From Janthinobacterium sp. 61 (GTDB taxonomy: Bacteria; Pseudomonadota; Gammaproteobacteria; Burkholderiales; Burkholderiaceae_D): 64,000 nucleotides of DNA. The notes under the pieces were generated by a model. The model was not told the DNA's origin. It saw only the letters and a program-made list of their open reading frames with translations, and ran no database searches. The stretch spans positions 4,092,001-4,156,000 of the forward strand of contig NZ_PJMQ01000001.1 of assembly GCF_002846335.1 (NCBI RefSeq), in the 5' to 3' direction. Below, piece by piece: positions 40,668-61,189 of the stretch. How positions within the stretch are numbered: the stretch's first letter is position 1; every line of letters begins with the position of its first letter. Both the position numbers and the translations under genes were made by a program.

Positions 40668-43304
<2,637 letters not shown>

Positions 43305-43306
43305 GC

Positions 43307-43319
43307 TGTCGGGTGACAC
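43307..43319 (+). repeat. left terminal inverted repeat
   Basis: TGTCGGGTGACAC, beginning with the TGT usual for this class. It pairs with 61116-61128. Confidence 0.88.
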
Positions 43320-43383
43320 AGAAAGTGAAAACCGTGCCAGGTAAGTGAAAAAGCCAAGTCACGGATAGTGAGAAAAAGCCAAC
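43314..43383 (+). promoter_or_regulatory. left-end transposase (TnsB) binding array
   Basis: Site L1 is TGACAC-AGAAAG-TGAAAA (43314-43331). Two further copies of its second half follow: AAGTGAAAAAGCCAAG near 43344-43359 and TAGTGAGAAAAAGCCAA near 43366-43382. Repeats of about 20 bases are typical of TnsB arrays; binding is inferred. Confidence 0.7.
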
Positions 43384-43405
43384 TGATCCAAGTTGGCTTT
43401 TTTTT
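43373..43405 (+). terminator. terminator inside the transposon left end
   Basis: Perfect 12-bp stem AAAAAGCCAACT/AGTTGGCTTTTT with loop GATCCA and a run of eight T. It ends gyrB transcription in place of the displaced native terminator, and its left arm is also part of the last TnsB-like repeat. Bases 43406-43494 hold no other gene. Confidence 0.88.
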
Positions 43406-43494
43406 GCGATATCCGATTCTGCCGACGACGACCGTTCTTCGGTATTATCTAAGCAACAATTCCCATTTGAGCAAGAAAACCGTGTAGGAGTGCT

Positions 43495-46400
43495 ATGGCT
43501 GGCGGACATGCAACAGCAGCAGGCGTGATGTTCCAACTCAATGTCGCTTCGTGGCTCGGGGTTCACGCGCTTTGCGAAAAACCAATACCTCAGTTGTCGG
43601 GCCTTCAGAATAGTTCGCCCCAATCGCTACATCTAGAATCGGAGGCACCAGTTGACGACCTCCGAATTACAACGGTGGCAGGCGGCAATATCTTCTTCAA
43701 TGTGAAGACAACTGTATCGCTCAGTTCATTGTTAAGGTCCCCATTGGGATCCGTTGTGGATCAATTCGTACGCCAACTCCTAGCGTGCCGCCAAGGGGAT
43801 GGCAATTTGGGTTGGGATCGACCACTTGACCAATCCAAAGACTGCCTCGTTCTCGCAGTCAGTTCCGCCAGAACACTTGGATTTGTAGACGCGACAAGGC
43901 CAATACTTGAGCGTATACGAAATAAAAAATCAATTCTTCCAATTGATCAGATCGCTACAACTCAAAAACAGAAGGTCGCCTACGAGGCATGGATTGATCT
44001 GGTTCAACAATGTTGGGCTCGCCATACCGGTATTGCACCCACTGATGGCGAAGTCTGCGATTTGCTCTCATGTGTTCGGTTAATCCAACTGGATTTTGAC
44101 GGCGCCACTGCAACCGAAATTAGTAGTCTCTTAACAGCCACAGTAGTCGAAAATCCTAACGATGCGTCAGCCGCTTGGAACGTAATCGTGAGCGAATGCG
44201 CGCGCCTCGCGCAGCTACGCAGCGGGGCAGATTCGCAGAAATTTAGGGACTGCTTACGTACTGAGGGAATATCGCTAAAAGAAAAGCCTGCATTCGCGTG
44301 CGATATTGAGCGCCTAAAACAGATCACGAAACGAACGCTTGAAACACTTTCACGATATTCGCGGCTCTCTGTTCCAACGGAAAGCGGGACGATAAGAGTC
44401 GAGATTGATAGAAACTGCGTGCAAGAGATTGTGATGTCTGCCACTACGAGTTCTTTCCTGCTCGTTGGGGCACCTGGAGCAGGGAAATCCGGCGCGATCT
44501 ACTCCGTTGCGAACTCTCTGATCAAATTGGGACACCCTGTGGTCGTGCTGGCTGTTGATGAGTGGTCCGCCACATCAAGAGAGGCGTTGCGGCAGGAACT
44601 TGAGCTGAAATATCCGCTAAGCGAAGTGCTTGACGCATGGAACGGAAAGAAGTCAGGAATTCTAATTATCGATGCACTTGATGCAAGTAGGGGCAACTCT
44701 TCAGACGAAGTGTTTTTCGAAGTTATTGCATCAATTCTTGATCGCACAAGCGGATGGAATGTCCTCGCATCAATTAGGAAGTTCGACCTTCGATATGGAG
44801 TCAAGTATCAAGACCTCTTCCGTGGCTCACCCGCTTCAAACCTGTTCAGAGACGTAAATTTTTCCAACGTAAGGCATTTCGATATTCCCCGCCTAAGCGA
44901 ACAAGAACTGGCGCAGGTTTGGGATAAATCCCCGCGAATGGCGGTCGCTTTTGATTCGGGAACTATAGCGTTCCGCGACCTGCTCACATCCCCCTTCAAC
45001 TTATTTCTCTTATCGACTGTTCTTCCCCCAACTGGGGACTCACGCGAACTACGGAGTATCGGCACCCAAGTCGAATTATTGGAAAGATATTGGGCTTATA
45101 GAGTTGAGAGTCCTGCTGACAATCACCGCATCAATCGTGTACGTTTATTGCGATCAGCAACCGAAGTCATGGTCAAGAAGCGGCAACTTTTTGTGAAAGG
45201 CTTCGATCTGGCCGGGCATGATGGTAGTCACCTCGAACAGCTGATGCAAAGCGGAATTTTGCTCGACCACCACTCGCAGGGCCGCATCTCGTTTTCCCAT
45301 CACATGTTATTTGACTACGCTGTAGCCAGGACGATCATGATGGACGATGATGATAATGCATTGATTGAACGGCTGGCCCTTTCCGACGATCAGGCGTTAT
45401 TGCTTGCCCCCGCCGCAATGATAGCCCTTCGAATAGTGTGGGGAGAACAGTTAAATAGGCATCCCTACTGGGAATTGGCTCTAGGTGTAGCGGCGCAGGA
45501 ATCGGCGGGTTCGTTTTCCCGCATGCTTCCCGCGAGGGTCGCTGCCGAGCTCATCGCCCTTCCAGATGATATCTCTCCGTTAACCGAAGCTATCTCTATA
45601 AATTACGTGCGCAAAGGTGCTGCGCTGTTTCTTGTACGGCACGTATTTGGAACCTTGCTCGCAAACGTAATTCTAGACCGGCCAATGTGGGGAAACGACG
45701 CTGACCCATGGTGCGGCATTGTTAGAAAACTCTGCGAGACGGATATGGCAAGCCTAGTTTGGCCAATGAAGGCAGTAATCGGGCATTGGACCGATACTCC
45801 GGCCGCACTTAGCTCGCAGCAGAGGAAGGACTTAGGGGCGGCCGCTCGCCTACTATTGAGAAGCGCTACGCGAGATTGGAAAAATCAAAGTACCTATGAC
45901 CAAGGCGCTGTCGTCAGTGGTATTCAAGCGATTGTTCGAACCTTCGACACAGAAAATTCTGAGTCTGAAGCAGCATTGGAAGCGCTATTGGAGCCAGACC
46001 GCGTCGCCGTTTATGGACACATTGAGCTATTCCGTTTCGCGATTGAAACCAAGCATTTAATTGCATCGGCGCCTCAACTTGTCCGTAAGTTGTATTTAGC
46101 AGCGTACTGTGCCCCCCTCCCTTCGCGAGAGGAAATTTCTCACATCGGGTCGAGTAAGATTCTTTCGCTTACTTCAAATAAACGGCAGGACATTGAAGGC
46201 GTGCAATATCAGCTAGAAGGTCATCTTGGCGAGTACCTGCAGACTGCTCCGGCGATTGCGATTAAGACCATCATTGACATTCTTGACTACCGCATTCCGA
46301 CAGAGCATCGGATAAAGGATGAAACTCCAATTGAGACCTTTGAATTTCTGAACTGCACTGCACAGTTTAGAGAGGACCTATCGGCAATCTGGTGGACGCC

Positions 46401-48423
46401 ATCCGGATCACACAATCGTGGCGAAGAAAAGCTACTTGATGTCGTTTTGCGAACTCTCTTGGAATTAGACGAAGTCGGCAGCACGAGCGCGGTTGAGAGC
46501 ATTATCATAAATGTAGTGCAGTTCAATGTGTGGGCATCGCTGTGGTCCGTATTGCTCATTGCAGGACAATCCCGGCCTGCGACAATTGGTAGGTCCGTGC
46601 TCCCCCTTCTATGGGTCCCCTCTGTACTAGCTGCCCACTCCACGGCGTACCCTGCCGGGGAACTATTGCGCATTCTTGCTCCTCGCTTGGAGCGACAGGA
46701 GCAAGGGCAAATTGAGACCGCCATTTGGCAGATTGAGAGTGAGCATCAAAGAGATGTCCTGATCGGCTGTTTATCACGCGATAACGTCACACTTGCCAAA
46801 ACAAATTCTCGTCTGGTGCAACTCGAGACGGAAGGGAATTTGATAGAAAACCGACCACCGTTCAGTCTCGAAAGCGGTTGGAGTGGCGATGAAAACTGGT
46901 GGTATCGGGAAGGTGGTATCGATATCTCAAAGGAACCCTTTGCATCAATTCACAACGCAGTTGAAGCCGTAAAGGTGCTCGCATCATCTAATGAACAATC
47001 GGCCGGCCCCAATGACGCGTGGATTAAGAATTGGCCAACTGTTCTCGCGTTGCATGAGGTTCTACTAAGAAATGATTCGATTCCTGAGCGTCTAGAGCAG
47101 CAAGCATGGGATCAACTCGCGGAAGCCGCAGAAAAAGCCGCGTTGAGCTGTAAAAGCGCCTCTGAGTTGGAGAAATTTCAGAGTTTGCATGCGATAGTCC
47201 GCTCAGCATCGAACCATAAATTCCCGCCCACTCCTCAACACGATCCGGCGCGAGAACATGAGTTCGCAAAACATCCATCCTGGGGTCGTCCGGCTCCTAG
47301 AATTGAAGCTGCGGCTGCTACTATGGCCCTAGCACGTGCGCATGGAGAGCCGTCACCAACGTACCGTGCCGATATTCTCCGTCTGATACGTGACCCGGCT
47401 GTAGAAATCAGACACACAATCGCATCGCGTCTGAACATGCTGTGTGAAGCGGACCCAGAATTAATGCAGACACTTATAGACGTGGTGTTTGATGAGGAGA
47501 ACAATCTAGGCATCCTTAGTTTCTTTCTTGGAGCTTTACACCGAGTCATTGGACGTGTGGACGCAGGTACGGCGGCGAAGCTTCTATCGTTAGATAGCAG
47601 GATTTCTTCGGATGAAGAAGAAGATCAACGAGATCTTCGTAGGCAACTTGTGACATCTATTGTTCGACTATGGATGGTCAACGATCTCACCGAAGCTAGT
47701 AGTCGAATCGAAGAGTGGATTGGCAGCCCTTCGATCTTTTCTTCGCATATACAGACAATGCTCAGTTCTCTTCGAGATACACTCTTGATGGGGAAAATTG
47801 ATGCCCCCGAGAGCCGTGACAGCACGATTAGGACACGAGCAATCCAAATTTTTAGCCGGAGTGTGACGAAAGCTGCCGAAGAGTTTAAACGGCTGGCACT
47901 TGTTCGCGAAAGAACTACCTTAGAACAAAAGCATCTAGAAAATACGTTTCGTGTCCTGGATACTGCCACACACGAAATCTACTTTGGCTCCGGTGCTTAC
48001 GAACGGGGCAAAGGACACCAAAGCATAGGTGAGCCAGATTCCGATTTATTGCAAATCAGGCGCAGATTCCTAAGCGAGATAAATAGCACGCTAGAGTGCC
48101 TCGCTGATGTGCCATACCCATCTATTACCCACTACCTTCTAGAAACGTTAGAGGCTTTCATTCCAGAGGCCCCTCAGCAGTGTCTCTCCTTGATGATACG
48201 GAGTGTTCACAATGGAGGTGCAAATGGCGGCTACCAATTGGAAAGCATGGGTGCAGATTTGCTCGTTCGCCTCGTTCGCAGGTTCCTCGCCGACTATGCT
48301 CCCATGATTTCGGGCCGCGAAGAATTCAGAACTGGACTAGTCAAGGCGCTGGATTATTTCGCAGAAGCTGGTTGGCCAGAAGCGCGCCAGCTCGTCTACC
48401 AGCTGCCGGAGATGCTGAGGTGA
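43495..48423 (+). CDS. Cap4-like nuclease / STAND-type NTPase, candidate anti-phage protein
   Basis: Protein of 1642 residues. The N-terminal 150 residues resemble Cap4/DUF4297-type endonucleases: GVMFQLNVASWLGVHAL, then E48...DD (54-55)...NVK71, the E-DD-(Q)xK layout with Asn replacing the usual Gln. A P-loop NTPase follows, with Walker A GAPGAGKS (325-332) and Walker B GILIIDALD (Asp393), then a winged or helical arm (SFSHHMLFDYAVARTIM near 600). The last 900 residues are helical, repeat-like, with HEAT-like stretches (ILRLIRDPAVEIRHTIASRLN). Nuclease-NTPase-repeat order is that of Avs/STAND defence proteins; I cannot assign a type. AGGAG precedes the ATG by 6 bases. Its stop overlaps the next gene. 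Activity and trigger are inferred. Confidence 0.72.
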   Translation: MAGGHATAAGVMFQLNVASWLGVHALCEKPIPQLSGLQNSSPQSLHLESEAPVDDLRITTVAGGNIFFNVKTTVSLSSLLRSPLGSVVDQFVRQLLACRQGDGNLGWDRPLDQSKDCLVLAVSSARTLGFVDATRPILERIRNKKSILPIDQIATTQKQKVAYEAWIDLVQQCWARHTGIAPTDGEVCDLLSCVRLIQLDFDGATATEISSLLTATVVENPNDASAAWNVIVSECARLAQLRSGADSQKFRDCLRTEGISLKEKPAFACDIERLKQITKRTLETLSRYSRLSVPTESGTIRVEIDRNCVQEIVMSATTSSFLLVGAPGAGKSGAIYSVANSLIKLGHPVVVLAVDEWSATSREALRQELELKYPLSEVLDAWNGKKSGILIIDALDASRGNSSDEVFFEVIASILDRTSGWNVLASIRKFDLRYGVKYQDLFRGSPASNLFRDVNFSNVRHFDIPRLSEQELAQVWDKSPRMAVAFDSGTIAFRDLLTSPFNLFLLSTVLPPTGDSRELRSIGTQVELLERYWAYRVESPADNHRINRVRLLRSATEVMVKKRQLFVKGFDLAGHDGSHLEQLMQSGILLDHHSQGRISFSHHMLFDYAVARTIMMDDDDNALIERLALSDDQALLLAPAAMIALRIVWGEQLNRHPYWELALGVAAQESAGSFSRMLPARVAAELIALPDDISPLTEAISINYVRKGAALFLVRHVFGTLLANVILDRPMWGNDADPWCGIVRKLCETDMASLVWPMKAVIGHWTDTPAALSSQQRKDLGAAARLLLRSATRDWKNQSTYDQGAVVSGIQAIVRTFDTENSESEAALEALLEPDRVAVYGHIELFRFAIETKHLIASAPQLVRKLYLAAYCAPLPSREEISHIGSSKILSLTSNKRQDIEGVQYQLEGHLGEYLQTAPAIAIKTIIDILDYRIPTEHRIKDETPIETFEFLNCTAQFREDLSAIWWTPSGSHNRGEEKLLDVVLRTLLELDEVGSTSAVESIIINVVQFNVWASLWSVLLIAGQSRPATIGRSVLPLLWVPSVLAAHSTAYPAGELLRILAPRLERQEQGQIETAIWQIESEHQRDVLIGCLSRDNVTLAKTNSRLVQLETEGNLIENRPPFSLESGWSGDENWWYREGGIDISKEPFASIHNAVEAVKVLASSNEQSAGPNDAWIKNWPTVLALHEVLLRNDSIPERLEQQAWDQLAEAAEKAALSCKSASELEKFQSLHAIVRSASNHKFPPTPQHDPAREHEFAKHPSWGRPAPRIEAAAATMALARAHGEPSPTYRADILRLIRDPAVEIRHTIASRLNMLCEADPELMQTLIDVVFDEENNLGILSFFLGALHRVIGRVDAGTAAKLLSLDSRISSDEEEDQRDLRRQLVTSIVRLWMVNDLTEASSRIEEWIGSPSIFSSHIQTMLSSLRDTLLMGKIDAPESRDSTIRTRAIQIFSRSVTKAAEEFKRLALVRERTTLEQKHLENTFRVLDTATHEIYFGSGAYERGKGHQSIGEPDSDLLQIRRRFLSEINSTLECLADVPYPSITHYLLETLEAFIPEAPQQCLSLMIRSVHNGGANGGYQLESMGADLLVRLVRRFLADYAPMISGREEFRTGLVKALDYFAEAGWPEARQLVYQLPEMLR

Positions 48424-49862
48424 GTACCGGTCGATTCTTTGAATTCAGGCGGCAAATCGCCAATCTAAAGACGAATTACGAGACGATCCACTTGCCGGAG
48501 ATTGAACGGGCTACGGCGGCAGTGCAAAAAAAATCGGCGGATGCATTGAAAGGGCAAGGGCGAGCGATTGTACGTGAAGCGCAGGTGCGTCAGTACCTGC
48601 TAGATCCAACGCTAACTTTCCTTGGATGGGATCTCGCAAATCCAAGTGCCATATTGGTTGAAGATGCTGTTGACGCGGCCAAAGACGGCGAACATCGTCG
48701 CTTCATGGATTATCATGGCAGAGAGATAAAGCCCAGCGGCGTCGATAGCTCGCTATTAATTGTTGAGGCAAAGCGCCCCAGTGTTCTACTACCAGGCCCA
48801 TCGATCACCTCCTCTGAAAATTTGGCCCTTGAAATAGTAAACGCTTTTGCGGCTATCCGATCAGGTAAGTCAAGGTGCAAGCATTTCACCGCAGATTGGT
48901 TCGATAGACTAAACACATTAGCCGACTATGCCGCTCGAGCAAAACAGCTTAGTGGCGACGCTCCCAGCAGGGTCGTCATTACGAATGGCGAATGGTTCAT
49001 CGTTTTCTTGAATCCTGAAAGCGCACTCATAGGCAAAAGCCCTTCAGCGGACGAAGTCCTTGTATTCCAGAATTTGGGCGAGGTCGGTGAGCGGGCGAAT
49101 GAATTCTGCGAGTCTCTAGAGTATGCCAGTCTGAGCGCTAAAGTCCCGACACAGCATCCGGCGAATTTGCAGAAATTTGTGTCTATAGGAGAAGATGTAA
49201 GAGCCGCCCTCGCCGTTGAACTTAGCTTCAATGTCATCGGGAACATTCAACCTTCGATGGCCGTGCGTGTCTACGCTCGCGTGAGAACCATGAAGGGAGT
49301 GTGGCTCAATTTTTGCAAGGATTACGAACCACCTTACGAGATCATGCCAGGAAAACAGGAGGCGTTTATCGAGCGCATAGGCCTTCTGCAAGAATTTGCA
49401 AACGACATAATTGCCGAACTACGAAAACATGCCAATGTAATTGTTATGACCCCAACTGAAGCTGAGGCCATAGCGGCAGATGATGGCGTGGTTTCCGGAT
49501 GGCATTCATCGCCACTAAGTTCGAGCCCGTCGCCAGAACTTCATTATTTGACCTTAGGTGACGGGGCATTCTACGTTACAAGTCGCGACGACTTCGATGA
49601 CTGTAGCTTCCACTCGTTTGGCCCCTGCTTGAACGCTGGAAGTGCAGCTACAACTCTACCCATCATTCGGCAGAGCCGGATGCCCCCAGTTTATTTTCCA
49701 TCGGGATCAAAAATGCATTGCGCACACAAGAGTGTCCACGCGGGCCGCGAAGGCAAATGCATTTTGAAATCATTCGAGACGCATATGTGCTGTCAACGCT
49801 GCATCTATCTAACGAGGTGCTGGCCGACTGGAACAGATGCGCTGCCGTGCTCGAAGGAATAA
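48420..49862 (+). CDS. HsdR N-terminal-like PD-(D/E)xK nuclease
   Basis: Start is GTG 48420, which overlaps the stop of the large NTPase gene (GTGA) and has GGAG before it; the longer frame from 48180 lies inside that gene. The 480-residue product matches the N-terminal domain of type I restriction R subunits: EAQVRQYLLDPTLTFLGWD, then the catalytic motif GVDSSLLIVEAKRPS with Asp109, Glu116 and Lys118. A region typical of these proteins (WFIVFLNPES) follows. It lacks the helicase motors of HsdR, so it may be the effector or partner of the NTPase. The last 50-60 residues look out of frame (see 49718-49972). Confidence 0.75.
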   Translation: MSTGRFFEFRRQIANLKTNYETIHLPEIERATAAVQKKSADALKGQGRAIVREAQVRQYLLDPTLTFLGWDLANPSAILVEDAVDAAKDGEHRRFMDYHGREIKPSGVDSSLLIVEAKRPSVLLPGPSITSSENLALEIVNAFAAIRSGKSRCKHFTADWFDRLNTLADYAARAKQLSGDAPSRVVITNGEWFIVFLNPESALIGKSPSADEVLVFQNLGEVGERANEFCESLEYASLSAKVPTQHPANLQKFVSIGEDVRAALAVELSFNVIGNIQPSMAVRVYARVRTMKGVWLNFCKDYEPPYEIMPGKQEAFIERIGLLQEFANDIIAELRKHANVIVMTPTEAEAIAADDGVVSGWHSSPLSSSPSPELHYLTLGDGAFYVTSRDDFDDCSFHSFGPCLNAGSAATTLPIIRQSRMPPVYFPSGSKMHCAHKSVHAGREGKCILKSFETHMCCQRCIYLTRCWPTGTDALPCSKE

Positions 49863-49972
49863 GAGGAGAGCACTGCCCTGTCCCGCTCCGCGAGAGTCGG
49901 GGGAAGAAAATTTCGGAAGACAATTTCTTGCCGCATGCCATCAAATCAAAAAATAGTGTGGCGCCGCAGTAG
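49718..49972 (+). pseudogene. frame-shifted C-terminal piece of the HsdR-like nuclease gene
   Basis: In another frame, text such as MHFEIIRDAYVLSTLHLSNEVLADWNR looks like genuine protein, while the same stretch in the frame of the preceding gene (HCAHKSVHAGREGKC...) does not. Both frames are open across 49610-49715, so a one- or two-base indel there would give a product of about 517 residues. It could also be a separate small gene with a TTG start, but no ribosome site is visible. Bases 49973-50213 hold no protein gene, only the operator-like repeats. Confidence 0.5.
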
Positions 49973-50062
49973 GTCGGCAGCCTCAAAAAAGGGGCCCTGG
50001 AACGAAATTTTATTGGTTGCTTTTCCGTGATAAATGTAGGAAAGCAAACGGTTAATTTCGAG

Positions 50063-50104
50063 GTCTCTCATAGGAGACTTCAATACCAAAGTGGTATGCT
50101 TTGG
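50063..50104. promoter_or_regulatory. operator-like inverted repeats before the XRE gene
   Basis: GTCTC-TCATAG-GAGAC at 50063-50078 and CCAAAG-TGGTATG-CTTTGG at 50086-50104. They lie 110-150 bases upstream of the regulator and suit autoregulation by it. Confidence 0.5.
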
Positions 50105-50213
50105 AAACCAAAATAACCTATTTTATTCAATGACTTACACACTCCACCAGGATTGACAGGCCGGCACTTTTTACATGCGCTTGGACACATGTGAATTGCA
50201 AGATTCAGTAAAC

Positions 50214-50636
50214 ATGAGCCCTTTTTCTCACTTCCTTTATGAGCTGCGCCTGCGTCACCAAATCCGTCAATCAGAATTGGCCGAATTGCTTGGTTACGAG
50301 CAAAGCTATATCTCTGCGCTGGAGGTTGGCATCAAAGGACCTCCAACCGAAGAGTTCATCACGAAGCTCATTGGGACGATGGCGTTGCCGCCGAGTGTGC
50401 AGTTAGAGTTAAGAGACATTGTCGCGGCGTCCGATCGCAAGTTGTCGCTGCCGGCAGACAGCCCACAACCACTCTACTGGATGCTAAAAGGGCTCCGTGA
50501 ACAGCTCGACAATCTGCATCCATTGCAGGTGAAATTGATTCAGGATGCGTTGGCGATGCGCGGATCGCTCGTCGACCCACAACCGGAACCAGTTCGGCGC
50601 ATCAAGCGCCGACGACGCGAGGAGGCCACAATGTAA
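50214..50636 (+). CDS. XRE-family helix-turn-helix regulator
   Basis: DNA-binding protein of 140 residues. Helix-turn-helix at about 5-60 (FLYELRLRHQIRQSELAELLGYEQSYISALEVG). The rest is helical, ending in a basic tail RRIKRRRREEATM. I chose ATG 50214; the frame to 50175 adds 13 residues unlike the family. It precedes tnsA in the same direction and sits next to operator-like palindromes, so it probably controls transposition genes. Confidence 0.8.
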   Translation: MSPFSHFLYELRLRHQIRQSELAELLGYEQSYISALEVGIKGPPTEEFITKLIGTMALPPSVQLELRDIVAASDRKLSLPADSPQPLYWMLKGLREQLDNLHPLQVKLIQDALAMRGSLVDPQPEPVRRIKRRRREEATM

Positions 50637-50870
50637 AAACGGGACAATCCTTTCGGCTTGCCCCGTTGGCCAGAGCATCAAAGATACCCCGGACTGACAT
50701 CTTCAGTATCTCCAAAGCTCCCGCCAACGTCAAGCCCCAAAACCAAACACGTCTGTATTTCGTCGCACGCATATCAAGTGGCGCGGGTGTTCGTACGTCC
50801 AAAAACAGGCGTATCCAACCATCAAAAAGGTACTGGACAGCGCATTGCGCCGGCGCCAGGGGAGACGTGC
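50637..50870 (+). other. gap before tnsA with a hairpin
   Basis: 234 bases with no separate gene. An imperfect stem AACGGG...CCCGTT (50638-50667) lies at the end of the regulator gene but lacks a T run, so it is a weak terminator or a leader structure. The tnsA frame stays open upstream to 50658, but those residues do not look like the family. Confidence 0.5.
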
Positions 50871-51593
50871 ATGTCCAACCATCTATGGCAGGGCACTTGG
50901 CAGGGTCAATCACCGCTTGGCGATGTTCATGACCGGGCACGAACAATCGTCCGGCCGACTGGCGGCATCGTACGCGGAAAATTCCCAAGCAGGAAAAATG
51001 GTCGCATGGTCCATCACGAGGGCCTGCTAGAGCTCGATGCCATTTACCTGTTTGAGGCCTCACCGCTCATCGCGCAATACAGAGAGCAACCAATTACGAT
51101 TCGGTACCCCGACGGCAATCGCTTGCGCCGCTACACACCAGATTTCGAATTGCGGCTAACCACTGGCGAAATCGTCCTGGTCGAAGTCAAGCCGCTACGC
51201 CGGCTTTGCGCCGATGAGGTTAAGCACACGTTCGACCGTATTGCGGATCACATGGCGCGAAACGGCACTCCATTCGTCATCCTCACTGACCTAATGATCC
51301 GCGAAGAGCCTAAACTGGCCAACTTGAAATGGATCTATCACCGCGCCGCACGAATCCCTCCAACACCTAGTGCCTTAACCACGGCGTTGGATAAGCACGA
51401 GCACGACTTTCCGATCCCTATCAGCACCGCGAACCATCTATTCGATGGGACGGGTACGGATACTTACAGCTTTCTCCTAGCTGGAAGATTGAAATGCGAT
51501 CTAACCATGCCTGTCGCGCTCAGCACAACATTGACGATAACGAAGGAGACGAATCATGACTGGTTTCGGATTACGCAAGAACATGGTTTTTGA
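50871..51593 (+). CDS. tnsA: TnsA-like endonuclease subunit of the transposase
   Basis: Cuts the 5' ends of the element so that, with TnsB, movement is cut-and-paste. It has 240 residues from ATG 50871, with GGGGAGA before it. The N-terminal nuclease domain reads HHEGLLELDAIYLFEASPLIAQYREQP, then RRYTPDFELRL and VLVEVKPLR, giving the restriction-enzyme-like residues Glu54 (or Glu50), Asp91 and Lys107. The C-terminal part, which in Tn7 contacts TnsC, is KLANLKWIYHRAAR. Its last 38 bases overlap the start of tnsB. Confidence 0.9.
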   Translation: MSNHLWQGTWQGQSPLGDVHDRARTIVRPTGGIVRGKFPSRKNGRMVHHEGLLELDAIYLFEASPLIAQYREQPITIRYPDGNRLRRYTPDFELRLTTGEIVLVEVKPLRRLCADEVKHTFDRIADHMARNGTPFVILTDLMIREEPKLANLKWIYHRAARIPPTPSALTTALDKHEHDFPIPISTANHLFDGTGTDTYSFLLAGRLKCDLTMPVALSTTLTITKETNHDWFRITQEHGF

Positions 51594-53574
51594 TTGGTCC
51601 GGCTCAAAATTTCGAATCGAACGCCTACATGAAAACGACGACGTAGTGCTAGAACGCCTCGCGGATGGATCAATCTCTGTGCTTAAGCGTCAAGCCCTGC
51701 TAATGGAATATCGCGAAGGAAAAATAGCCGCCATCTCTGAAAGAGAAGCCAGCGCAACGCCAGCGATTAAGGTTTTCTCGCGCCCGCTCGATGAGCTATC
51801 CGAGGTTGTACAACTGGAAGTGACCCGCCGACACCACTATCTCCAAGCCATCTGCAATGCCGGTAGGGTAGTGTTCACGAAAGCCCATATCGAGCCCTTG
51901 ATACAGCGCGTAGCGGCCGAGATCGACGACCCTAAGCCCCCAAGCACGACTAGCATCTATCGTTGGCACCTTCGCTATCGCAGCGAGAAGGACTCGCGCG
52001 CATTGATCCCTAGGACTGATCGGCGCGGCTCGCACGCAATGAAGCAGGACGAAACCGTTCTAAGGCTCGCATCCGATTCTATCAGCGAAGCCTTCAAGGT
52101 GTCGCCTATGGCGAGTGGTCCGAGTATCTACGCGAGACTGCTCGCAAAGATCGAAATCGAAAATCGATACCTAATCCCCAAAGAGCAGCTCAAGGCGCCA
52201 TCGCTACGAACAGTCTATCGGATGCTGTTGCGTCTCGACGCTTATGACCGGGCTGTTCTCAAGGAAGGGAAGATCGCGGCGGACAAGCGATTCACAGTGG
52301 TAAAGGCTGGAGTACGGAGCGCGCAAATTCTAGAGCGCGTCGAAATAGACCACACACCACTTGATCTATTTTTGATTGACGAGAAAAGTCGGCTTCCGCT
52401 CGGACGCCCTACGTTGACTGTGGTCGTCGATCACTACAGCAGGATGCTTTTGGGATTTCACCTCAGCTTCGGCAATCCATCCACAGCGGCAGTAATGGGA
52501 GCGCTTCGACATGCTATTTTGCCGAAGGAAGGGGCATTAGCGCAAGTGAATCCGGAGCTGAATCCAAAGCATACATGGCCATGTTATGGCAGGCCGGATG
52601 TGATGGTGGTAGATAACGGTATGGAGTTCCATGGAAAGGACCTCGAAAGCGTTGCATACGACTTGGGGATCCGAATTCAGTTCTGCCCCAAGCACCAGCC
52701 TCGTTTCAAGGGTGTCGTGGAACGCTATCTGGGAACATGCAACCGATTCTTTGCCCACCAGCTTCCCGGAACGAGCCTCTCTCGTTGGCATCTACGTGGC
52801 GACTATGACCCGTTGAAGCACGCAGTGTTGACCCTCTCCGATTTTCAAATGATCTTCCATAAGTGGGTCCTTGATGTATATGCGCAAACGGTACATCGAG
52901 GGACAGGCGAAACTCCATGGGCAAGGTGGCATGAAGGACTACAACGGCGGGAGCCGGAACTCCCCGAAAGTGTCCACGCGTTAAAGCAGCGCATCGGCCA
53001 GATTGAGGAGCGAACATTACGTGCTGATGGAATTCTGCTTCATGGGATTCGCTACAACGGCGAATCTCTCGCACCGATACTTCGCGCATACGGGCCTGGC
53101 ACCAAGGTGCGGGTACTTTTCGATTCGGAAGACCTGGGGGACATTCAGGTTTGGGGGCCGAATAGTCCGGAACCGGTCATTGTCTCCGCCCTCGATCAAA
53201 ATCATGCACGCGGGCTAACGGCCTTGCAAAACGACCTTATCCGTACCGCAGTTCGCGAAAAAGGCGCCTCTCAGCAGGATCGTGCAGCTCTTGAAGTCGC
53301 ACGGCAGAGCATCATTAGCACTGTCGAAAACCTCATGAGTAGCAGGAAGCAAAAGGACCGTCGACGCGCCGCAGACATTCTCGGAGCAAGCACAAGCAAG
53401 CCGGCCGCCGAAACATCTCCTCCCCTGTTTTCAGCGATGTCTCAGCGCGACGGAGAGGCACATTCCATGTCCATCCAGCAGCTGCCCCAAAAATTCGCCC
53501 ACATCGACGCCCCGCCGCCGGCATATGCGTTCTTTCGATCCAAACGCAAATCGAATGAGGAAGCCATCAAATGA
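51556..53574 (+). CDS. tnsB: TnsB-like DDE transposase
   Basis: Binds the ends and joins 3' ends to target DNA. It has 672 residues. The start at ATG 51556 has a strong AAGGAGA site. The N-terminal domains bind DNA (helix-turn-helix text near 130-240). The RNase H-like core has the triad Asp265 (VEIDHT), Asp353 (VVDNG) and Glu389 (KGVVERY), the last two 35 residues apart as in DD35E enzymes. A Mu-type beta-barrel domain follows (GIRYNGESLAPILRAYGPGTKVRVLFDSEDLGDIQVWGP). The tail (FAHIDAPPPAYAFFRSKRK) may contact TnsC. Its stop overlaps tnsC (ATGA). Confidence 0.93.
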   Translation: MTGFGLRKNMVFDWSGSKFRIERLHENDDVVLERLADGSISVLKRQALLMEYREGKIAAISEREASATPAIKVFSRPLDELSEVVQLEVTRRHHYLQAICNAGRVVFTKAHIEPLIQRVAAEIDDPKPPSTTSIYRWHLRYRSEKDSRALIPRTDRRGSHAMKQDETVLRLASDSISEAFKVSPMASGPSIYARLLAKIEIENRYLIPKEQLKAPSLRTVYRMLLRLDAYDRAVLKEGKIAADKRFTVVKAGVRSAQILERVEIDHTPLDLFLIDEKSRLPLGRPTLTVVVDHYSRMLLGFHLSFGNPSTAAVMGALRHAILPKEGALAQVNPELNPKHTWPCYGRPDVMVVDNGMEFHGKDLESVAYDLGIRIQFCPKHQPRFKGVVERYLGTCNRFFAHQLPGTSLSRWHLRGDYDPLKHAVLTLSDFQMIFHKWVLDVYAQTVHRGTGETPWARWHEGLQRREPELPESVHALKQRIGQIEERTLRADGILLHGIRYNGESLAPILRAYGPGTKVRVLFDSEDLGDIQVWGPNSPEPVIVSALDQNHARGLTALQNDLIRTAVREKGASQQDRAALEVARQSIISTVENLMSSRKQKDRRRAADILGASTSKPAAETSPPLFSAMSQRDGEAHSMSIQQLPQKFAHIDAPPPAYAFFRSKRKSNEEAIK

Positions 53575-54533
53575 ACTTGCCCTTCTTTGACGCGATCAAA
53601 CAGCTTCAAGACGAATGCCTTATGTTTCCGGCTTTTGAAACCGCCTACCAACAAATTGAGGCGAACCTCAATTTGTTCAGGGCGACAGGTGTCGCGCAGA
53701 ATCTACTGATTCTTGGTGAAAGCGGGGCTGGGAAAACTAGCCTGGCGACGATCTTTACCAGGGAATATCCCAAGGTGTCATTGCCTGAGCGTGACCTAAT
53801 CCCCGTGCTCCATGTGACCGTTCCAGCCGCCGCAACAATCGCGGGCACGGTCGAAGCCGTGCTAGCACAGCTTGGCGATCATCATCCTGAGAAAGGAACC
53901 GTCTCGGTCAAAACGGCGCGCGCAGTCAAGATCGCGCGCGCCTGTGGCGTTGAAATGCTTTTGTTCGACGAAGCCCAGCACATTCAGGATCGTGGCCGTG
54001 CGCACTCCCAATACTTCGTGGGCGACTGGCTCAAGTCATTCATGGATGCTCTTGGTGCCCCAGTTACATTACTTGGCCTTCCCCGTACACAAGTTCTATT
54101 GCAGGTGAATGAGCAACTTCGCCGGCGCTTCACGCATCGCCTTTTTCTGTCAGTTCAACAAAGGGCCGAGGCCGATGAGGCGGATAGCTTGCGACTGTTC
54201 ACGTCTTTGGCCAACGCACTTCCACTGCCTCTAGACCCTAGGCCATATGAATGGGGAGAACTCGCCAAGAGATTGCACTTCGCAACCGATGGCCGCGTTG
54301 CATACGTCAAAAAGATTCTGGTGGGCTCGTATTCCAATGCAGTATCGGAGGCATGCACAAGCATTACCGTCAGTGATCTTTCACGCGCCTTCTCAACGAC
54401 GATATGGCCATCAGGAGTAGGCGCGCTCAATCCATTTCATCCGTCATTTCCATTTCGGCCACTAGACCGCGCCGGCGAGCCATTCCAGACTGGCGAAATG
54501 AGCGGTAGTTCCCCATCAAGGAGGCGTCAATGA
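53571..54533 (+). CDS. tnsC: TnsC/TniB-like AAA+ regulator of transposition
   Basis: ATPase that links the target selector to the transposase, 320 residues. Walker A GESGAGKT (49-56), Walker B MLLFDEAQH (Asp133, Glu134), sensor region LGLPRTQVLLQVNEQLRRRFTHRL with the arginine finger. Short TniB length, without the extensions of Tn7 TnsC (about 555 residues). Start and stop overlap tnsB and tniQ. Confidence 0.92.
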   Translation: MNLPFFDAIKQLQDECLMFPAFETAYQQIEANLNLFRATGVAQNLLILGESGAGKTSLATIFTREYPKVSLPERDLIPVLHVTVPAAATIAGTVEAVLAQLGDHHPEKGTVSVKTARAVKIARACGVEMLLFDEAQHIQDRGRAHSQYFVGDWLKSFMDALGAPVTLLGLPRTQVLLQVNEQLRRRFTHRLFLSVQQRAEADEADSLRLFTSLANALPLPLDPRPYEWGELAKRLHFATDGRVAYVKKILVGSYSNAVSEACTSITVSDLSRAFSTTIWPSGVGALNPFHPSFPFRPLDRAGEPFQTGEMSGSSPSRRRQ

Positions 54534-56338
54534 GACCACTACCCGTGCGGCCGCTACCGGTACCGACCGAACCAATTATGGATTACCTGGAACGATTGGC
54601 AAACTCGAACGGCTACAACCTTAGAGAATTTCAGACTTGGTTCGGGAGCGATCAAGGCATTTGTACTTCGACTCTGACCGAATTTCTAAGTGGGCATAAG
54701 CTGCCACCGTTCTCCGGACCAGCAAGCCAACAAGTCAAAATACCGGTGAATTTGTTCGGCCTACAGGTTGCTGACTTTACACACATGTACCGTCGGTGGT
54801 GCCCGGCCTGCGTTGCCCTCGAAAGCTGGATGCGCCCTGTTTGGCGCTTGAAGACCGCGACAGTCTGTGCCACACATCGCATCTGCCTTCTCCAGTCCTG
54901 CCCAAGGTGCCATTCTTATCCGGATTTGCAATCAATCCTGAACGGCACGTGCGTATGCGGCGTCAATTTTATCGAAGTTCTTTCACAAGCAACGCGTGCA
55001 GAGATCCAAATTTCGCAAGCGCTGGAAAAGTCGTTGGCACAGCCCATCACATTCAATTTGGGAGAGACCGAGGTTAAACTCGACACTCCTAAAATCGTAC
55101 GCCTTATCTGCTACGCAGGCCAGTTTTCAAAAGGGCCACTGTTACATCGGCCCGGGAAGATTCGCGATCTTGAAAGCATCAATGTCGCATCGCACATAGT
55201 CGCTGGAACGGCCACGCTCTTGGCAGACTGGCCGTCATGCTTCTGGCATTGCCTTGAACGCTTTGTAAAAGCAGCCCCTGATGATGCAAGCATCAGACGT
55301 GTCTTCGGCCCGCTATACCATGTCCTGTATCAAGATCTTCATGATGAAGCGTTTCATTTCCTTCGGAGCTCGTTCGAGCTATTTCTTCTTGAGCATTGGC
55401 GTGGCGAGCTCTGCGGCCGGCATCGCCTGTTTAGCGAGGAAACGATCAACGGACATCGACATCAGGGACTTTCCCGCGTTGCACGATCTGCGGGACTTGG
55501 AAGCAAGAGACTTCGAAGAATGGTGCATCAGGATCGCTTCCCAGCGAATACTTTCAATCCCAAGTCTACCAAACACCTGATCACGGTGGACAAGGAAGTG
55601 CTTGCGCGCCTTCTTCCCAATCTCAATGACTACCTTGATTTACGCGCAACAGCTCGACTCCTGGGCTTCAAGCGCACCAGACTTAGACAGCCCGTCGCCC
55701 GTGGCGTGCTCTTGGCCGATGCAAAACCGGATTTCGGCATAAGCAATCGCTGGCATTTTCGGCGCACTGAGATCGAAGCCTACCTGACGGATATTCGTCA
55801 AAGAGCGACTCAAACAGTAGCCGGCGAATCGGCGACTCTAGGCCATGCGCTTCGATATTGGCGCGTTGAATCGACAGAATTGGGGGAGCTCATGAAGGCT
55901 CTCAAACGTGGAGAAATCAATTTTTCAATGCCTCACAGATTTCGCCTTTGCGATTTGACGTTTCCAGCCGATGAACTACGCTCTTGGCTCGCGACACAAC
56001 GTTTGGCCACTGTGTCTTGGATCTCCGCATCGAAGGCATCAGAACTACTTTCCCTGAAAGAGCAAGTCGTGTACGAACTAATTTCCAAGAACCTGCTTGT
56101 CGCCGAAGTGGTGACTAAGAATGGCCATGCCATGCGGCGGATCTCTCTCCCTAGCCTCCAAGAATTCAAGGAAACATACGTATCGGCTGCGGCACTGGCT
56201 CGGCAACACGAAATATCTGTTTCAACAATGCTCAGAAAAATCAAGGCAACGCCAATAACCGGCCCCAGGATTGACGGCGGCCGACAATACTTCTTCAAGC
56301 GTAGCGAGATCGAGTTTGAATTTACTGATCGAGAATGA
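54530..56338 (+). CDS. tniQ: TniQ/TnsD-like target-selection protein
   Basis: Probable selector that binds the gyrB 3' end. It has 602 residues, near TnsD length (508) and longer than plain TniQ. The N-terminal TniQ domain is followed by a zinc ribbon: Cys91/94, Cys113-His116, Cys124/127 and Cys141/143. The C-terminal half has several helix-turn-helix-like segments, such as WISASKASELLSLKEQVVYELISKNLL and VSAAALARQHEISVSTMLRKI, enough to read a long DNA site. It is the only TniQ in the element, and no guide-RNA partner is seen, so fixed-site targeting is the natural inference. Confidence 0.9.
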   Translation: MRPLPVRPLPVPTEPIMDYLERLANSNGYNLREFQTWFGSDQGICTSTLTEFLSGHKLPPFSGPASQQVKIPVNLFGLQVADFTHMYRRWCPACVALESWMRPVWRLKTATVCATHRICLLQSCPRCHSYPDLQSILNGTCVCGVNFIEVLSQATRAEIQISQALEKSLAQPITFNLGETEVKLDTPKIVRLICYAGQFSKGPLLHRPGKIRDLESINVASHIVAGTATLLADWPSCFWHCLERFVKAAPDDASIRRVFGPLYHVLYQDLHDEAFHFLRSSFELFLLEHWRGELCGRHRLFSEETINGHRHQGLSRVARSAGLGSKRLRRMVHQDRFPANTFNPKSTKHLITVDKEVLARLLPNLNDYLDLRATARLLGFKRTRLRQPVARGVLLADAKPDFGISNRWHFRRTEIEAYLTDIRQRATQTVAGESATLGHALRYWRVESTELGELMKALKRGEINFSMPHRFRLCDLTFPADELRSWLATQRLATVSWISASKASELLSLKEQVVYELISKNLLVAEVVTKNGHAMRRISLPSLQEFKETYVSAAALARQHEISVSTMLRKIKATPITGPRIDGGRQYFFKRSEIEFEFTDRE

Positions 56339-56393
56339 CCAGCGACGAGCCCGTGTTAAATTACGTGCATACATTCTATGTTTGACAGGAAAT

Positions 56394-57272: not shown

Positions 57273-57437
57273 CGTACGCGCTTTTATTAACTTTGGGCAG
57301 CCGAACTTCAAGAATCAATGGCGGATAGCGCATCATGCAGTAGATTTCCGATGAGATCGCGGGCGTCGTAGCGCTTGAGTTCGCATGATTAGGTGATACC
57401 TAATTCAATAGAAAACGATAAACAGCCAGGGAACTTC

Positions 57438-58427
57438 ATGTCAGAGCGAAAGTACCGATTTCATAGACCAAACAACCCGGACCAGCATTTAGAGGCAATC
57501 TACGAAGAGCTGTCGCTCTCCCCACATGAACATGACCGGCGGCCAACACAGACACTAAAAGACCATGTGGTCGCATTGCTCAAACATGCGAGAGAAATCG
57601 AGTCAAAGCGCGAATCGAAGGATTTAGATCGGTCGTATTCCATCAACTGGGCGCTTGGCGCGCTTGCGTTTCTAGCGTGTTTATTTCTCTGGCACGGCCT
57701 AACAAAGGCGGACGATACTGACTGGTTGTACCAACATCATTTTGCAATCCGGCTGTGGGGGATTGCGTTCGCAGCAGTCTTTCTCGGGGTCTCAATTGAA
57801 CGCAGTTCATTCTTCAAAAGCCTCTGGCTGTTCGGATTTACCAAAATCGTCGCCTCAATAGCATTGTCGTCTCTGATTATTTTCAGCACAGGCAAGGCAT
57901 CTTCATTGATCAATGCAGTCTTTCCTGTAGACGCATCGGCGCTACCACTAACAAGAGCTATCGTAGCTGGACTCCTTGCATTTCAATATTTGACGCCATT
58001 GCTGGGTGTTGTTGCTCTATTTGCTGTCTTTCACGCGCTAAACGCGGCAGGCTGGATCACCGCAAAATGGTCTCGCAAAAACACCTATGAGAGTCCCCCA
58101 TTCCAGTCCGTCGCGTTTCTGCTTTTGTCGATTGTTGTGCTCTTGTTCACTACACGCTGGGTTAACGACGATTTTTCGGAAGTTGCTTGGCCAGCAAAAA
58201 TATATAGGCTCGCACATGCACTGGATTTCAATTCCAAGTATGAATGTAAGAACCTTAGGAAAGGCCTGTCGGTCGTGTTTTTGGGACCAGATCAGGCTCG
58301 CGTGCTTGTCGATACGCGAGCGGCAAAAACCGACGATTTAGAATCGTTCGTCGACCAAAAACTCAGCAGCCAAATCGAAGTCACTAAGCAGTTTTATGTC
58401 CTGCCCTGTGACCTGGGAGAGCATTGA
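57438..58427 (+). CDS. multi-pass membrane protein of unknown function (cargo)
   Basis: Protein of 329 residues, family not recognised. ATG 57438 follows CAGGGAAC. After a charged N-terminal region of about 70 residues there are 5-6 membrane segments (INWALGALAFLACLFLW, LWGIAFAAVFLGVSIE, KIVASIALSSLIIFST, LLGVVALFAVFHAL, SVAFLLLSIVVLLF). A soluble C-terminal domain of about 80 residues follows (KNLRKGLSVVFLGPDQARVLVDTRA). The 165-base gap before it has no gene. Confidence 0.75.
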   Translation: MSERKYRFHRPNNPDQHLEAIYEELSLSPHEHDRRPTQTLKDHVVALLKHAREIESKRESKDLDRSYSINWALGALAFLACLFLWHGLTKADDTDWLYQHHFAIRLWGIAFAAVFLGVSIERSSFFKSLWLFGFTKIVASIALSSLIIFSTGKASSLINAVFPVDASALPLTRAIVAGLLAFQYLTPLLGVVALFAVFHALNAAGWITAKWSRKNTYESPPFQSVAFLLLSIVVLLFTTRWVNDDFSEVAWPAKIYRLAHALDFNSKYECKNLRKGLSVVFLGPDQARVLVDTRAAKTDDLESFVDQKLSSQIEVTKQFYVLPCDLGEH

Positions 58428-58460
58428 ACAAATTCGCGCACTTACGCGGGATTTCATCAG

Positions 58461-58470
58461 CCCCCCCCCC
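58461..58470 (+). repeat. ten-base C tract
   Basis: Ten C in a row, 36 bases before the broken gene that follows. Such a tract slips easily in replication. Confidence 0.8.
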
Positions 58471-58505
58471 GACGAACCCTTTTTTAAAAAGTAGCCGCGA
58501 CTTCA

Positions 58506-60235
58506 ATGCGGCATCATATTCACGTTCTGACTGGAAGCGCCATGAGTATCGCGGAAATAGAACTTCTCATCGATGAAAAGTATCAGAGCACGCCGCTACC
58601 TCATCCGAATCGGAGTTTGGCAATTTGGCACTTTCTTACGGCTGCTGAGGATGCTCTGCGCCACAAGTTGACACGTCGCGACATCCCTACTGGCTCGATT
58701 GAGTATTTTGTCGATAGAGCAAAATATTCGCTGAAATACGGCCTCGATCGCATTGAAAAGGAAAGTCGGAATTTCTCAGCGGAACAGTTTCCTCGTCGTG
58801 CAGTTGCCTCTTGCTACGAACGCGGATTTCGTCTTCTGGACGCCGGGCTGGACTATTCTGTCGGGTGCCAAATTTGCTCCTCAGTGCACAACAAGACCAA
58901 TGGAGCTGCAAGAGTCAGAAGGCCTGATTACCACTGAAAGTGGACGAAAAATATCATGCGACGGGATACGCCGTGCTGGAAATGTTGGGGCACCAACCTG
59001 ACGGCAGCTCTTCCTTCATGCAGATTATTTTTTGGCTACTGCGCCACAATGAAGACTTGCCATTCATCATTGGACAAATTGCTAGCACCGTCAAGGTAAA
59101 AGTCAAGCTAATTTCCTACGAATATGATTCATATTTAGCGGCTGACTTAGGCTTGCTTTTCGCCCAGTCACCCCAGTTGATACCTGATGACTGGCAGTTC
59201 TCTTGGGGCGGGAGGTACGAAACTACACTGCTGCTAAATGCGCTGAGTATTCGTTGCGCCTATCATTTCATTGCAATTCACTTTGGTGCAACTGCAAAAG
59301 GGCTAAGCGGAGCAGGGGGTGATGATCTTGTTCTGGTGGTGTGAATCGAAGCACTTTGTTTGGAATTAGAAATGCTCTCGTCGTTGCCTGCCTCAACCAT
59401 TCGCAAATTCGTTGACGAGCTTATTTATGGAAAGGACGTGAAGTCTCCCGACCCTGCACTTCAGCCGTTCTGCCAGCTGTCCAAGGGGTTGCTGGCCATC
59501 CCACCGCTCCATGTCCTCTCTTGCCATATGGAGCGAAATCTACTCGCATTGCAAGCCCGCACCCAAGCATCAAAATTCGATGCAATGAGCTAGGCGTTTG
59601 AACGCGATATGATCGCCTCCATAGTGAGGAAGCTTTCACCGCACTGGCCGCAGATGCGGCCCAATTTCACATGGAAATTCAATGATGAGAAAGAGGAGTT
59701 CGATCTAATCGTTGCAGATCCACGCACCCACAGCTTATTGATCTGCGAAATGCGATGGACAATTCAGCCAGGCGACCCCAGGGAAGTGGCACAACGCAAA
59801 AAAAACTGCTTCGAAAAAGTCTCCCAGCTTGAGAGAAAAGTTGAATGGCTGCGACCGCGTCTACACACTGCGGTGACGGAAATCTTCGGAATTGAAACGA
59901 CTCTTGAAAATCCATGGGAGATCGTTGGTCTCGTTGTAGTCGATGGATTTGGTGGAGTAATGAGCCCGAACGGCGACCTACCGATCATGCCGGCAAGGAT
60001 CTTCGAGCGGGCTATGCCACAGGTCGAGTCATTACAAGTACTAAAGAATTGGAGCAAATCTCTGGCCTGGCTTCCTCAAGAAGACGTCTTTTTTGAGATG
60101 AAATGGCGAGAACTTGAGCTTGAAGGAAAACGCATAAACTATCAGGGAATGATCCCACTACAAGAACGCCCTGACTTTCTTCAGCATATTGACCGCACAA
60201 TAATGGCAGCGAAGACACAAACTTCGCGCGGATGA
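58506..60235 (+). pseudogene. decayed gene, nuclease-like C-terminus
   Basis: Protein-like text runs for about 1.7 kb but is broken. The first frame (58542 start MSIAEIELLIDEKYQSTPLPHPNRS) ends at 58937; a second frame carries MELQESEGLITTES; a third begins near 58940 (DEKYHATGYAVLEMLGHQPDG). The third then continues in one frame to 60235 through two stop codons, at 59342-59344 and 59591-59593. The last 200 residues contain FDLIVADPRTHSLLICEMRW, which resembles a PD-(D/E)xK core with Arg for Lys. Sequencing errors, or several short genes, are the alternatives. Intact, it would be about 570 residues. Family not recognised. Confidence 0.6.
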
Positions 60236-60257
60236 GCCTACGATAAATGGAAAGATC

Positions 60258-60821
60258 ATGCCACCGCCACCGCTGACCTCAACCTTCATACGTAGAATCG
60301 CACTATTGTGCTGTCACTTCACGCGGAACGTCGCGTACTACCGCCTCGGGTACGTTGACGAGAACGGCATCGGGAGACTCAAGCAAGCGACAGAATTTGG
60401 TGCCACTATCAACGGCAACATGGTCGACATAGCCGTGCTGGAGTGGTGCAAGCTGTTTGCCGACAGAAAGGGACACCATCATTGGCACAAGCTTGTGCGA
60501 TCTGACGTGGAACAGCGTCAGTTTCTTGCGGAACTACTTCATATCCTTGAGGTCAATGACGCCGCCTGGCGTAAGTACCTAGATGAATTTCGGGTCTATC
60601 GTGATAAGTTTGTTGCACACTTGGATACGGAGGACTTGGCTCGAATCCCGCAACTTGACATGGCCTTGCAAAGCACCTATTTTCTTTACTCACGTCTACT
60701 CGCTGACGCGCCAGCTGGTACCTTCGACATGCCAGGACGTGCCAACCTTCCTCGCGATCTGCCGACCTATTTCGCTTCATGCCAAGCAGATGCTCGAGCG
60801 GCATATGCTCAGATAACGTAG
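60258..60821 (+). CDS. AbiU2/HEPN-like protein (cargo)
   Basis: Helical protein of 187 residues. The motif RDKFVAHLD gives Arg115-x5-His121, the Rx4-6H signature of HEPN-type ribonucleases, in the form seen in AbiU2-like proteins. An N-terminal stretch (FTRNVAYYRLGYV) and LEWCKLFADRKGHHHWHKLV fit that fold. No partner antitoxin is next to it. The role is inferred as RNA cutting in phage defence. It is the last gene before the right end. Confidence 0.65.
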   Translation: MPPPPLTSTFIRRIALLCCHFTRNVAYYRLGYVDENGIGRLKQATEFGATINGNMVDIAVLEWCKLFADRKGHHHWHKLVRSDVEQRQFLAELLHILEVNDAAWRKYLDEFRVYRDKFVAHLDTEDLARIPQLDMALQSTYFLYSRLLADAPAGTFDMPGRANLPRDLPTYFASCQADARAAYAQIT

Positions 60822-61128
60822 TCGCGTCGCCCACTGTTCCATGCGCTAGCGCGACAAACCAATTTTGCCACCGTGGACTCGATGAGTCCGCAAAGCGTGT
60901 GTGAAAACACGAGCCGCCTTCTTGAAGAAGCCCACTGCTCGATAGTTCTAGATCCTTAAGAGTTGTTCATCACGTGGCGCGCGTCGCCATGAAATTTTTC
61001 ATTTATGAGGTCACGACTCATGGCTTTTTTCACATTCTGTGTCAGACTCAGAATGTGTCCGTGACGGAGAATCTGAAAAATGCGCTTGTAATCAAGGCTC
61101 AACTTTTCAAGATTGGTGTCACACGATA
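60822..61128. other. right end of the transposon
   Basis: 307 bases with no gene. It holds R1, TGACAC-CAATCT-TGAAAA (61104-61121, minus), and R3, TGACAC-AGAATG-TGAAAA (61027-61044, minus), plus a weaker TGAAAA-type site near 60990-61005. The right array spans about 140 bases. Confidence 0.75.
61116..61128 (-). repeat. right terminal inverted repeat
   Basis: TATCGTGTGACAC read inward. It has TAT where the left end has TGT. Its first TnsB-like site begins 7 bases inside, exactly as on the left. Confidence 0.85.
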
Positions 61129-61133
61129 TAAGC
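61129..61133. repeat. target-site duplication, right copy (TAAGC)
   Basis: TAAGC, directly after the right end, followed by the original sequence downstream of gyrB. Confidence 0.88.
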
Positions 61134-61162
61134 CAGCTTGCCTGGTTTCCGTGACTGCCAAG

Positions 61163-61189
61163 GCGGCCCCTTTCAGGGCCGCTTTTTTT
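61163..61189 (+). terminator. original gyrB terminator, displaced by the transposon
   Basis: Stem GCGGCCC/GGGCCGC with seven T. Removing the transposon and one TAAGC places it about 30 bases after the gyrB stop. Confidence 0.88.

Follow-up and report, generated by a model that had tools for sequence, protein, structure and literature searches.

The 64,000-nucleotide stretch of DNA analyzed here (hereafter the window) carries a transposon of 17,822 bp (43307-61128) directly behind gyrB, in a genome assembled as a single contig of 6.0 Mb. This location raises the question of whether the element merely came to rest next to gyrB or belongs to a lineage that recognizes this gene. Our analysis indicates that it is very probably a Tn7-like cut-and-paste transposon from a lineage whose chromosomal attachment site is the 3′ end of gyrB. 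What can be read from the sequences comprises the ends, the 5-bp duplication, empty sites, the TnsABC-TniQ genes and insertions that recur in many species a few nucleotides past the gyrB stop, oriented so that the tnsA-proximal end is the one next to gyrB. The features of the locus are listed in Table 1.

Table 1. Coordinates of the window element, its ends, its genes and its flanks.
Feature	Position in the window	Strand	Basis or remark
gyrB, intact; 3′ end is the presumed target	40791..43304	+	
Target duplication TAAGC, left copy, includes the gyrB stop	43302..43306	.	
Left terminus TGTCGGGTGACAC	43307..43319	+	
TnsB-type site, 26.0 bits	43314..43330	+	matrix scan
TnsB-type site, 21.1 bits	43334..43350	+	matrix scan
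TnsB-type site, 13.2 bits	43357..43373	+	matrix scan
Terminator-like hairpin followed by a T run, within the left end	43373..43405	+	folding
Cargo, PADLOC candidate PDC-M54A, 1642 aa	43495..48423	+	weak ATPase-type Pfam matches
Cargo, PADLOC candidate PDC-M54B, start approximate	48393..49862	+	
Helix-turn-helix regulator adjoining tnsA, start uncertain	50217..50636	+	Pfam; kept in relatives
tnsA, start uncertain	50658..51593	+	Pfam
tnsB	51556..53574	+	Pfam, solved-chain match
tnsC (TniB family)	53571..54533	+	Pfam
tniQ, TnsD-like: TniQ core and winged-helix tail	54530..56338	+	Pfam, solved-chain match, predicted structure
Six cargo ORFs	56403-57272, 57393-58427, 58506-58937, 58940-59344, 59609-60235, 60258-60821	+	
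TnsB-type site, 12.1 bits	60997..61013	-	matrix scan
TnsB-type site, 21.1 bits	61028..61044	-	matrix scan
Terminal-most right-end TnsB-type site, weak, 6.1 bits	61105..61121	-	matrix scan
Right terminus, TATCGTGTGACAC read inward	61116..61128	-	
Target duplication TAAGC, right copy	61129..61133	.	
Native terminator downstream of gyrB, displaced by the insertion	61160..61185	+	

An initial sequence-only reading of this DNA had proposed a complete Tn7-like transposon flanked by two copies of TAAGC, with imperfect 13-bp inverted ends and TnsA-TnsB-TnsC-TniQ homologues inside, and most of this description was borne out; it had noted neither the recurrence of gyrB as an attachment site in this TniQ lineage, nor the terminator in the end facing gyrB, nor the unusual right terminus. 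Both copies of the duplication were found, the first three bases of the left one being the gyrB stop codon, and the inverted termini TGTCGGGTGACAC (left) and TATCGTGTGACAC (right, reverse complement) are identical at 11 of 13 positions. TnsB-type repeats occur at both ends, on either side of open tnsA, tnsB, tnsC and tniQ genes; the three sites of the left end are arranged head-to-tail. The matrix used to detect these sites was derived from 44 units contained in 15 left ends, all from other genomes, and its five top scores in the 64-kb window all fall at the two ends of the element. The 5-bp duplication and the TGT...ACA ends with arrays of TnsB sites are those of Tn7-like elements, with one exception: the right terminus of the window copy is ...ATA, whereas most other ends are ...ACA. 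Read inward, this terminus gives TATCG in the window and TGTCG in G005, G075, G021 and G163; deviating right termini were also found in G090 (AGTCG) and G154 (TCTCG, with an exact duplication). Since a terminal CA matters for this class of transposases, the unusual right terminus may have immobilized the window copy, whose present mobility is uncertain; a sequencing error is another possible source of the ATA. This terminus qualifies the description of the element as complete.

The TnsB-type DDE transposase, the TnsC/TniB ATPase and the TniQ-domain protein are encoded together, as in other Tn7-like elements. TnsA (PF08722, 34 bits for a cut-off of 26.5), TniB, Mu-transpos_C and HTH_17 exceeded the Pfam cut-offs, and rve (31.9 for a cut-off of 32.6) and TniQ (26.8 for a cut-off of 27) fell barely below theirs; furthermore, TniQ and TnsB match solved TniQ and TnsB chains by sequence. 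No recombinase-type ORF was recognized by Pfam in the element, and no Cas protein was found among its scanned ORFs. In its predicted structure, TniQ shows the TniQ core fold followed by a tail of winged-helix domains that resemble those of MerR and excisionases (VIA-align is reliable on this protein only for residues 2-301 and 492-590). It is predicted to be a target selector of the TnsD type, consisting of a core and its own C-terminal DNA-binding region. The helix-turn-helix gene upstream of tnsA perhaps encodes a regulator of transposition.

Removal of 43307-61133 rejoins gyrB to its native terminator, as anticipated from the sequence alone, and the element lies close to dnaA/gyrB, in keeping with the position near the origin that had been claimed. 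The expected empty site was searched for by joining the window flanks at the duplication (400 + 400 bp) and comparing them with the 29 gyrB loci recovered from 39 other genomes of the genus. This site, GTGTAAGCCAGC, is present in nine of the 29 loci. Nine of the 29 also align across the junction, seven of them without interruption over all 800 bp (88.9-93.5% identity) and two partially. Another shared sequence, TAGGGCGCCA..., occurs behind gyrB in several members of the genus (L009, L017 and L030), once directly after a 13-bp transposon end.

The prevalence of this location was then assessed on relatives of TniQ selected by protein similarity, not by position, in genomes of the family, of the order and of named species (50 rows, spanning 59% to about 20% identity). 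The family set comprises 22 of 44 matching genomes, the rest being short or fragmentary matches; the order set comprises 18 rows from 16 genomes (that of the window excluded) among 57 matching genomes, with a search profile that included TniQ proteins already known at gyrB; and the named-species set comprises 10 of 18 loci, five others being records of genomes already used and three being fragments. Eight rows could not be tested because the contig is broken or gyrB lies on another contig (G021, G164, G284, G296, G279, G769, G771 and G774). Among the 42 testable rows, 36 share the strand of gyrB and lie at most 50 kb downstream of it, a placement for which a random site in a 4.5-Mb genome has an estimated chance of about 0.6%; this count includes G381, despite a distance of 42 kb and another TniQ match in between. 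Rows with a broken tniQ were left out of it (G545, at gyrB; G538 and G610, not at gyrB). In 35 of these 36 rows, the gyrB stop is followed after 2-13 nt by a TGT(A/C)G end, the exception being the alphaproteobacterial G775, located at gyrB on the same contig at about 10 kb. The same test was positive for six of the 29 loci of the genus, four of which (L006, L010, L011 and L017) are recognizable transposon ends. Such ends were also found behind gyrB in Methylomonas methanica (a gammaproteobacterium) and in a second alphaproteobacterial MAG, where TniQ and gyrB are on separate contigs. Insertion beside a conserved gene, in a constant position and orientation, is another trait that the window element shares with Tn7-like transposons.

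The six remaining testable rows include two located behind lysS (G747a and G666a, where the flanking gene is a lysine-tRNA ligase according to NCBIfam), three located elsewhere (G417a, G747b and G461) and one, G278, which lies on the other strand at 35 kb from gyrB and was counted as a miss. We interpret the lysS elements as a target switch within the TniQ clade. Two sister elements (L228 and L230) lie about 30 nt behind the lysS stop and also carry a hairpin inside this end. In the tree of the 50 rows, labelled as 35 gyrB, five other and 10 untestable (labels since corrected to 36, six and eight), the gyrB label was not clustered (161 of 500 shuffles were as low); this result belongs to the earlier labels, before G775 was assigned to gyrB and G278 to the misses, and is given no weight here. 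Since TnsD proteins targeting parE are known, parE was also considered as the target and was set aside: the flanking genes are full-length best matches to GyrB, and the ParE-like paralogues are elsewhere. In related elements at seven loci (L175, L177, L178, L180, L181, L222 and L227), tnsC is followed by two tniQ-like genes, of which the second encodes a long protein of the window type.

Searching other genomes for the element ends, as the sequence-only reading had suggested, also led back to gyrB. The pattern TGTCGGRTGACAYNNNNNRTGMAA, with one mismatch allowed, matched 59 of the 392 genomes of the family (two for the reversed control), and at least 20 of the 392 genomes carry it as a left end located 2-8 nt behind the gyrB stop; this number is a lower bound, about 18 matched places being known only by their 24 matched bases. 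This recurrence and the clustering of the best TnsB-matrix scores at both ends show that the ends of the window element are not due to chance. Matches to TGTCGGGTTACACCGA.GATGAAA, recurrent in many genomes, were discarded, as the three seen in context (L165, L169 and L170) look like a conserved coding stretch rather than ends. The tnsABC and tniQ genes adjoin gyrB in three of the 20 genomes with window-type left ends (the window, G075 and G329, the last with tnsA/tnsB partly duplicated) and are on a contig other than that of gyrB in G021; G005 and G090 retain tnsA and part of tnsB, and G176 retains a fragment of tniQ. No tns gene was found in the other 13 loci within the sequence examined (some of these are short, 1.5 kb in one case), and many of these left ends may be relics or non-autonomous elements. 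The G005 element (L062:108-10892), a shortened relative inserted at the same nucleotide as the window element, has two left ends 76 bp apart and a tnsB cut off against the right end, and has neither tnsC nor tniQ. Short elements with both ends and devoid of tns genes were found away from gyrB in G060 (1.07 kb, duplication ACTAA) and G154 (1.13 kb, duplication GCTCG). Elements of this kind, 1.07-4.1 kb long, with window-like ends and in which no tns genes were found, lie away from gyrB at four loci (L140, L142, L146 and L138), two of them with exact 5-bp duplications.

Of 33 gyrB rows checked, seven show a whole element at gyrB, with both of its ends flanked by an exact 5-bp duplication: the window (17,822 bp, TAAGC), G005 (10,785 bp, TAAGC), G075 (11,960 bp, AGGTG), G291 (14,945 bp, AATGC), G172 (16,066 bp, GGTAT), G661 (13,933 bp, GATGT) and G637 (12,833 bp, TAAGC). 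No convincing duplication-matched right end was found for the other 26 within the sequence examined; a 1.8-kb match in G050 was discarded, since internally it does not look like a right end. In G291, an element of TGTAGG type lies between gyrB and an older left end of TGTCGG type, at the same position. Two diverged families are thus stacked at one nucleotide, suggesting that it is the gyrB side that is recognized.

The end facing gyrB may also serve the target gene. In the left end of the window element, 66 bp inside, a perfect inverted repeat of 12 bp precedes a T run; this hairpin folds at -19.3 kcal/mol (0 of 200 shuffles as good) and was detected by folding but missed by a consensus terminator scan. 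A simple test for terminator-like hairpins was positive for 14 of the 20 window-type left ends in their first 250 bp, compared to 12 of 70 windows from the interior and 33 of 400 shuffled sequences; among the 36 TniQ-selected rows, 29 show such a hairpin no more than 250 nt from the gyrB stop. The gyrB-facing end often carries a terminator, which we infer to replace the displaced native one. This proposal is weakened by the six window-type left ends in which no hairpin was detected in the first 250 bp and by the weak hairpin of G098.

The element had also been described as a defence-type island, and this holds at the candidate level. The PADLOC models PDC-M54A and PDC-M54B match the two largest cargo genes almost from end to end, and homologues of both (88% identity) are carried by G005; PDC-M54 is itself only a candidate system. 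The six other cargo ORFs have no Pfam match above cut-off and no PADLOC match. In the five other duplication-bounded gyrB elements whose cargo was scanned (17 of the 18 ORFs, other than tns genes, that reach 230 aa, the one left out overlapping tnsB on the other strand), PADLOC matches were found in three: SduA and PDC-M36A in G075, a defence-type reverse transcriptase, a TIR protein (PDC-S35) and a capP match in G172, and a DNA methylase and a helicase in G661. None was found among the scanned cargo ORFs of at least 230 aa of G291 and G637. The cargo of the window element, known from candidate models only, is probably anti-phage.

We propose that the winged-helix tail of TniQ would bind the conserved last ~60 bp of gyrB, which encode EPRRxFIExNAL..NIDV, and that TnsC would be loaded towards the gyrB stop codon, where TnsA and TnsB bound to the ends would insert the element behind the stop. 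Such an insertion would leave gyrB intact, and the terminator of the left end would take the place of the native one, so that transcription of gyrB would end at the junction and the cargo would be insulated. An alternative is that the landing site is set not by TniQ reading gyrB but by features lying behind this gene, such as AT-rich intergenic DNA, a terminator hairpin or a safe spot close to the origin. The region behind gyrB does tolerate insertions, since it varies strongly among members of the genus and holds other inserts. However, the regular 2-13 nt spacing of the TniQ-selected ends is maintained despite differing downstream sequences, the newer element of G291 was inserted where the native downstream sequence was already gone, and sister TniQ proteins are found at the end of another gene, lysS. 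This explanation is consequently improbable. Guidance by RNA, as in CRISPR-associated Tn7-like elements, could be considered because the TnsB and TniQ core of the window are, among solved chains, nearest to type I-F CAST proteins, but we regard it as extremely improbable: besides the lack of Cas proteins among the scanned ORFs, the element contains no repeat array, no Rfam match and no guide-like match to gyrB. The longest match without mismatch between the element and the target region is 10 nt, and a 23-nt match with four mismatches, slightly longer than those of shuffles (19-21), is located in the downstream flank and not in gyrB.

It could also be argued that the element reached gyrB only once and is now an immobile fossil, its relatives reflecting chromosomal descent more than repeated homing. 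The ATA of the right terminus, the shortened G005 relative lacking tnsC and tniQ at the same nucleotide and the many left ends devoid of tns genes would fit such a history. Against it, empty sites occur in the genus, the duplications differ in sequence (TAAGC, AGGTG, AATGC, GGTAT and GATGT), and the ends and cargo differ between genera. These observations show repeated arrivals, although the window copy itself may be dead, and the fossil reading as a whole seems unlikely. Returning to TniQ-directed insertion at gyrB, we lean slightly towards a broader proposal. The 3′ end of gyrB would be an ancient home site, in effect a second "glmS", for an entire TniQ lineage found across Proteobacteria; the tandem winged-helix tail that reads it would have been re-aimed at least once (to lysS), and the end facing the gene would include, as a standard part, a terminator protecting the regulation of gyrB.

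The attachment sites tabulated for Tn7-like elements are glmS, yhiN, comM, parE and tRNA genes, in the portions of these sources that were available (PMC11406308 Table 1; PMC10201428), and the word gyrB is absent from the main text of PMC10293859, PMC8649781 and PMC11406308. No description of a gyrB attachment site was found in the open literature; supplements and most subscription papers are outside this scope, and an earlier report is possible. Within the limits of the literature covered, the gyrB attachment site thus looks unreported, the element being otherwise of a known Tn7-like kind. It would add an essential, near-universal and origin-proximal gene to the short list of home sites that Tn7-like elements read by a protein. 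It also offers a simple rule for locating such elements behind gyrB and marks this stretch as a place to seek defence cargo. Furthermore, gyrB readers and closely related lysS readers form a natural series for working out the DNA code of TniQ/TnsD tails.

Among known systems, the Tn5053/Tn402 family is devoid of TnsA, and the window element differs from it by the presence of this protein. It also differs from CRISPR-associated transposons in that neither Cas effectors nor a guide to the attachment site were found in it. Like the window element, I-F3 CASTs of the Tn7017 type possess a TniQ/TnsD that homes to the gene of a type II topoisomerase B subunit, parE (PMC11406308, in part), and the proximity of TnsB and of the TniQ core to I-F chains, mentioned above, is a further likeness; the window element nevertheless lies at gyrB, shows no Cascade or CRISPR and has a single target selector. 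Tn6022 (comM; TniQ and TnsF) is likewise a TnsABC-TniQ element with a chromosomal home site, but it requires TnsF with TniQ and sits inside comM (PMC10293859, in part). By contrast, the window element has a long TniQ and no recombinase-type ORF according to Pfam, and leaves its target gene intact. Tn7 inserts farther from the glmS stop than the 2-13 nt of the gyrB elements. The window element differs from Tn7 proper by its target, gyrB instead of glmS, and by the predicted MerR/excisionase-like winged helices of its tail; no tnsE was recognized with the models used, none of which was specific to tnsE. It shares with Tn7 (glmS; TnsABC and TnsD) the TnsA, TnsB and TnsC proteins, a target protein that combines a TniQ domain and a DNA-binding tail, the 5-bp duplication and a single orientation of insertion downstream of a conserved gene, past its 3′ end (PMC11406308, in part).
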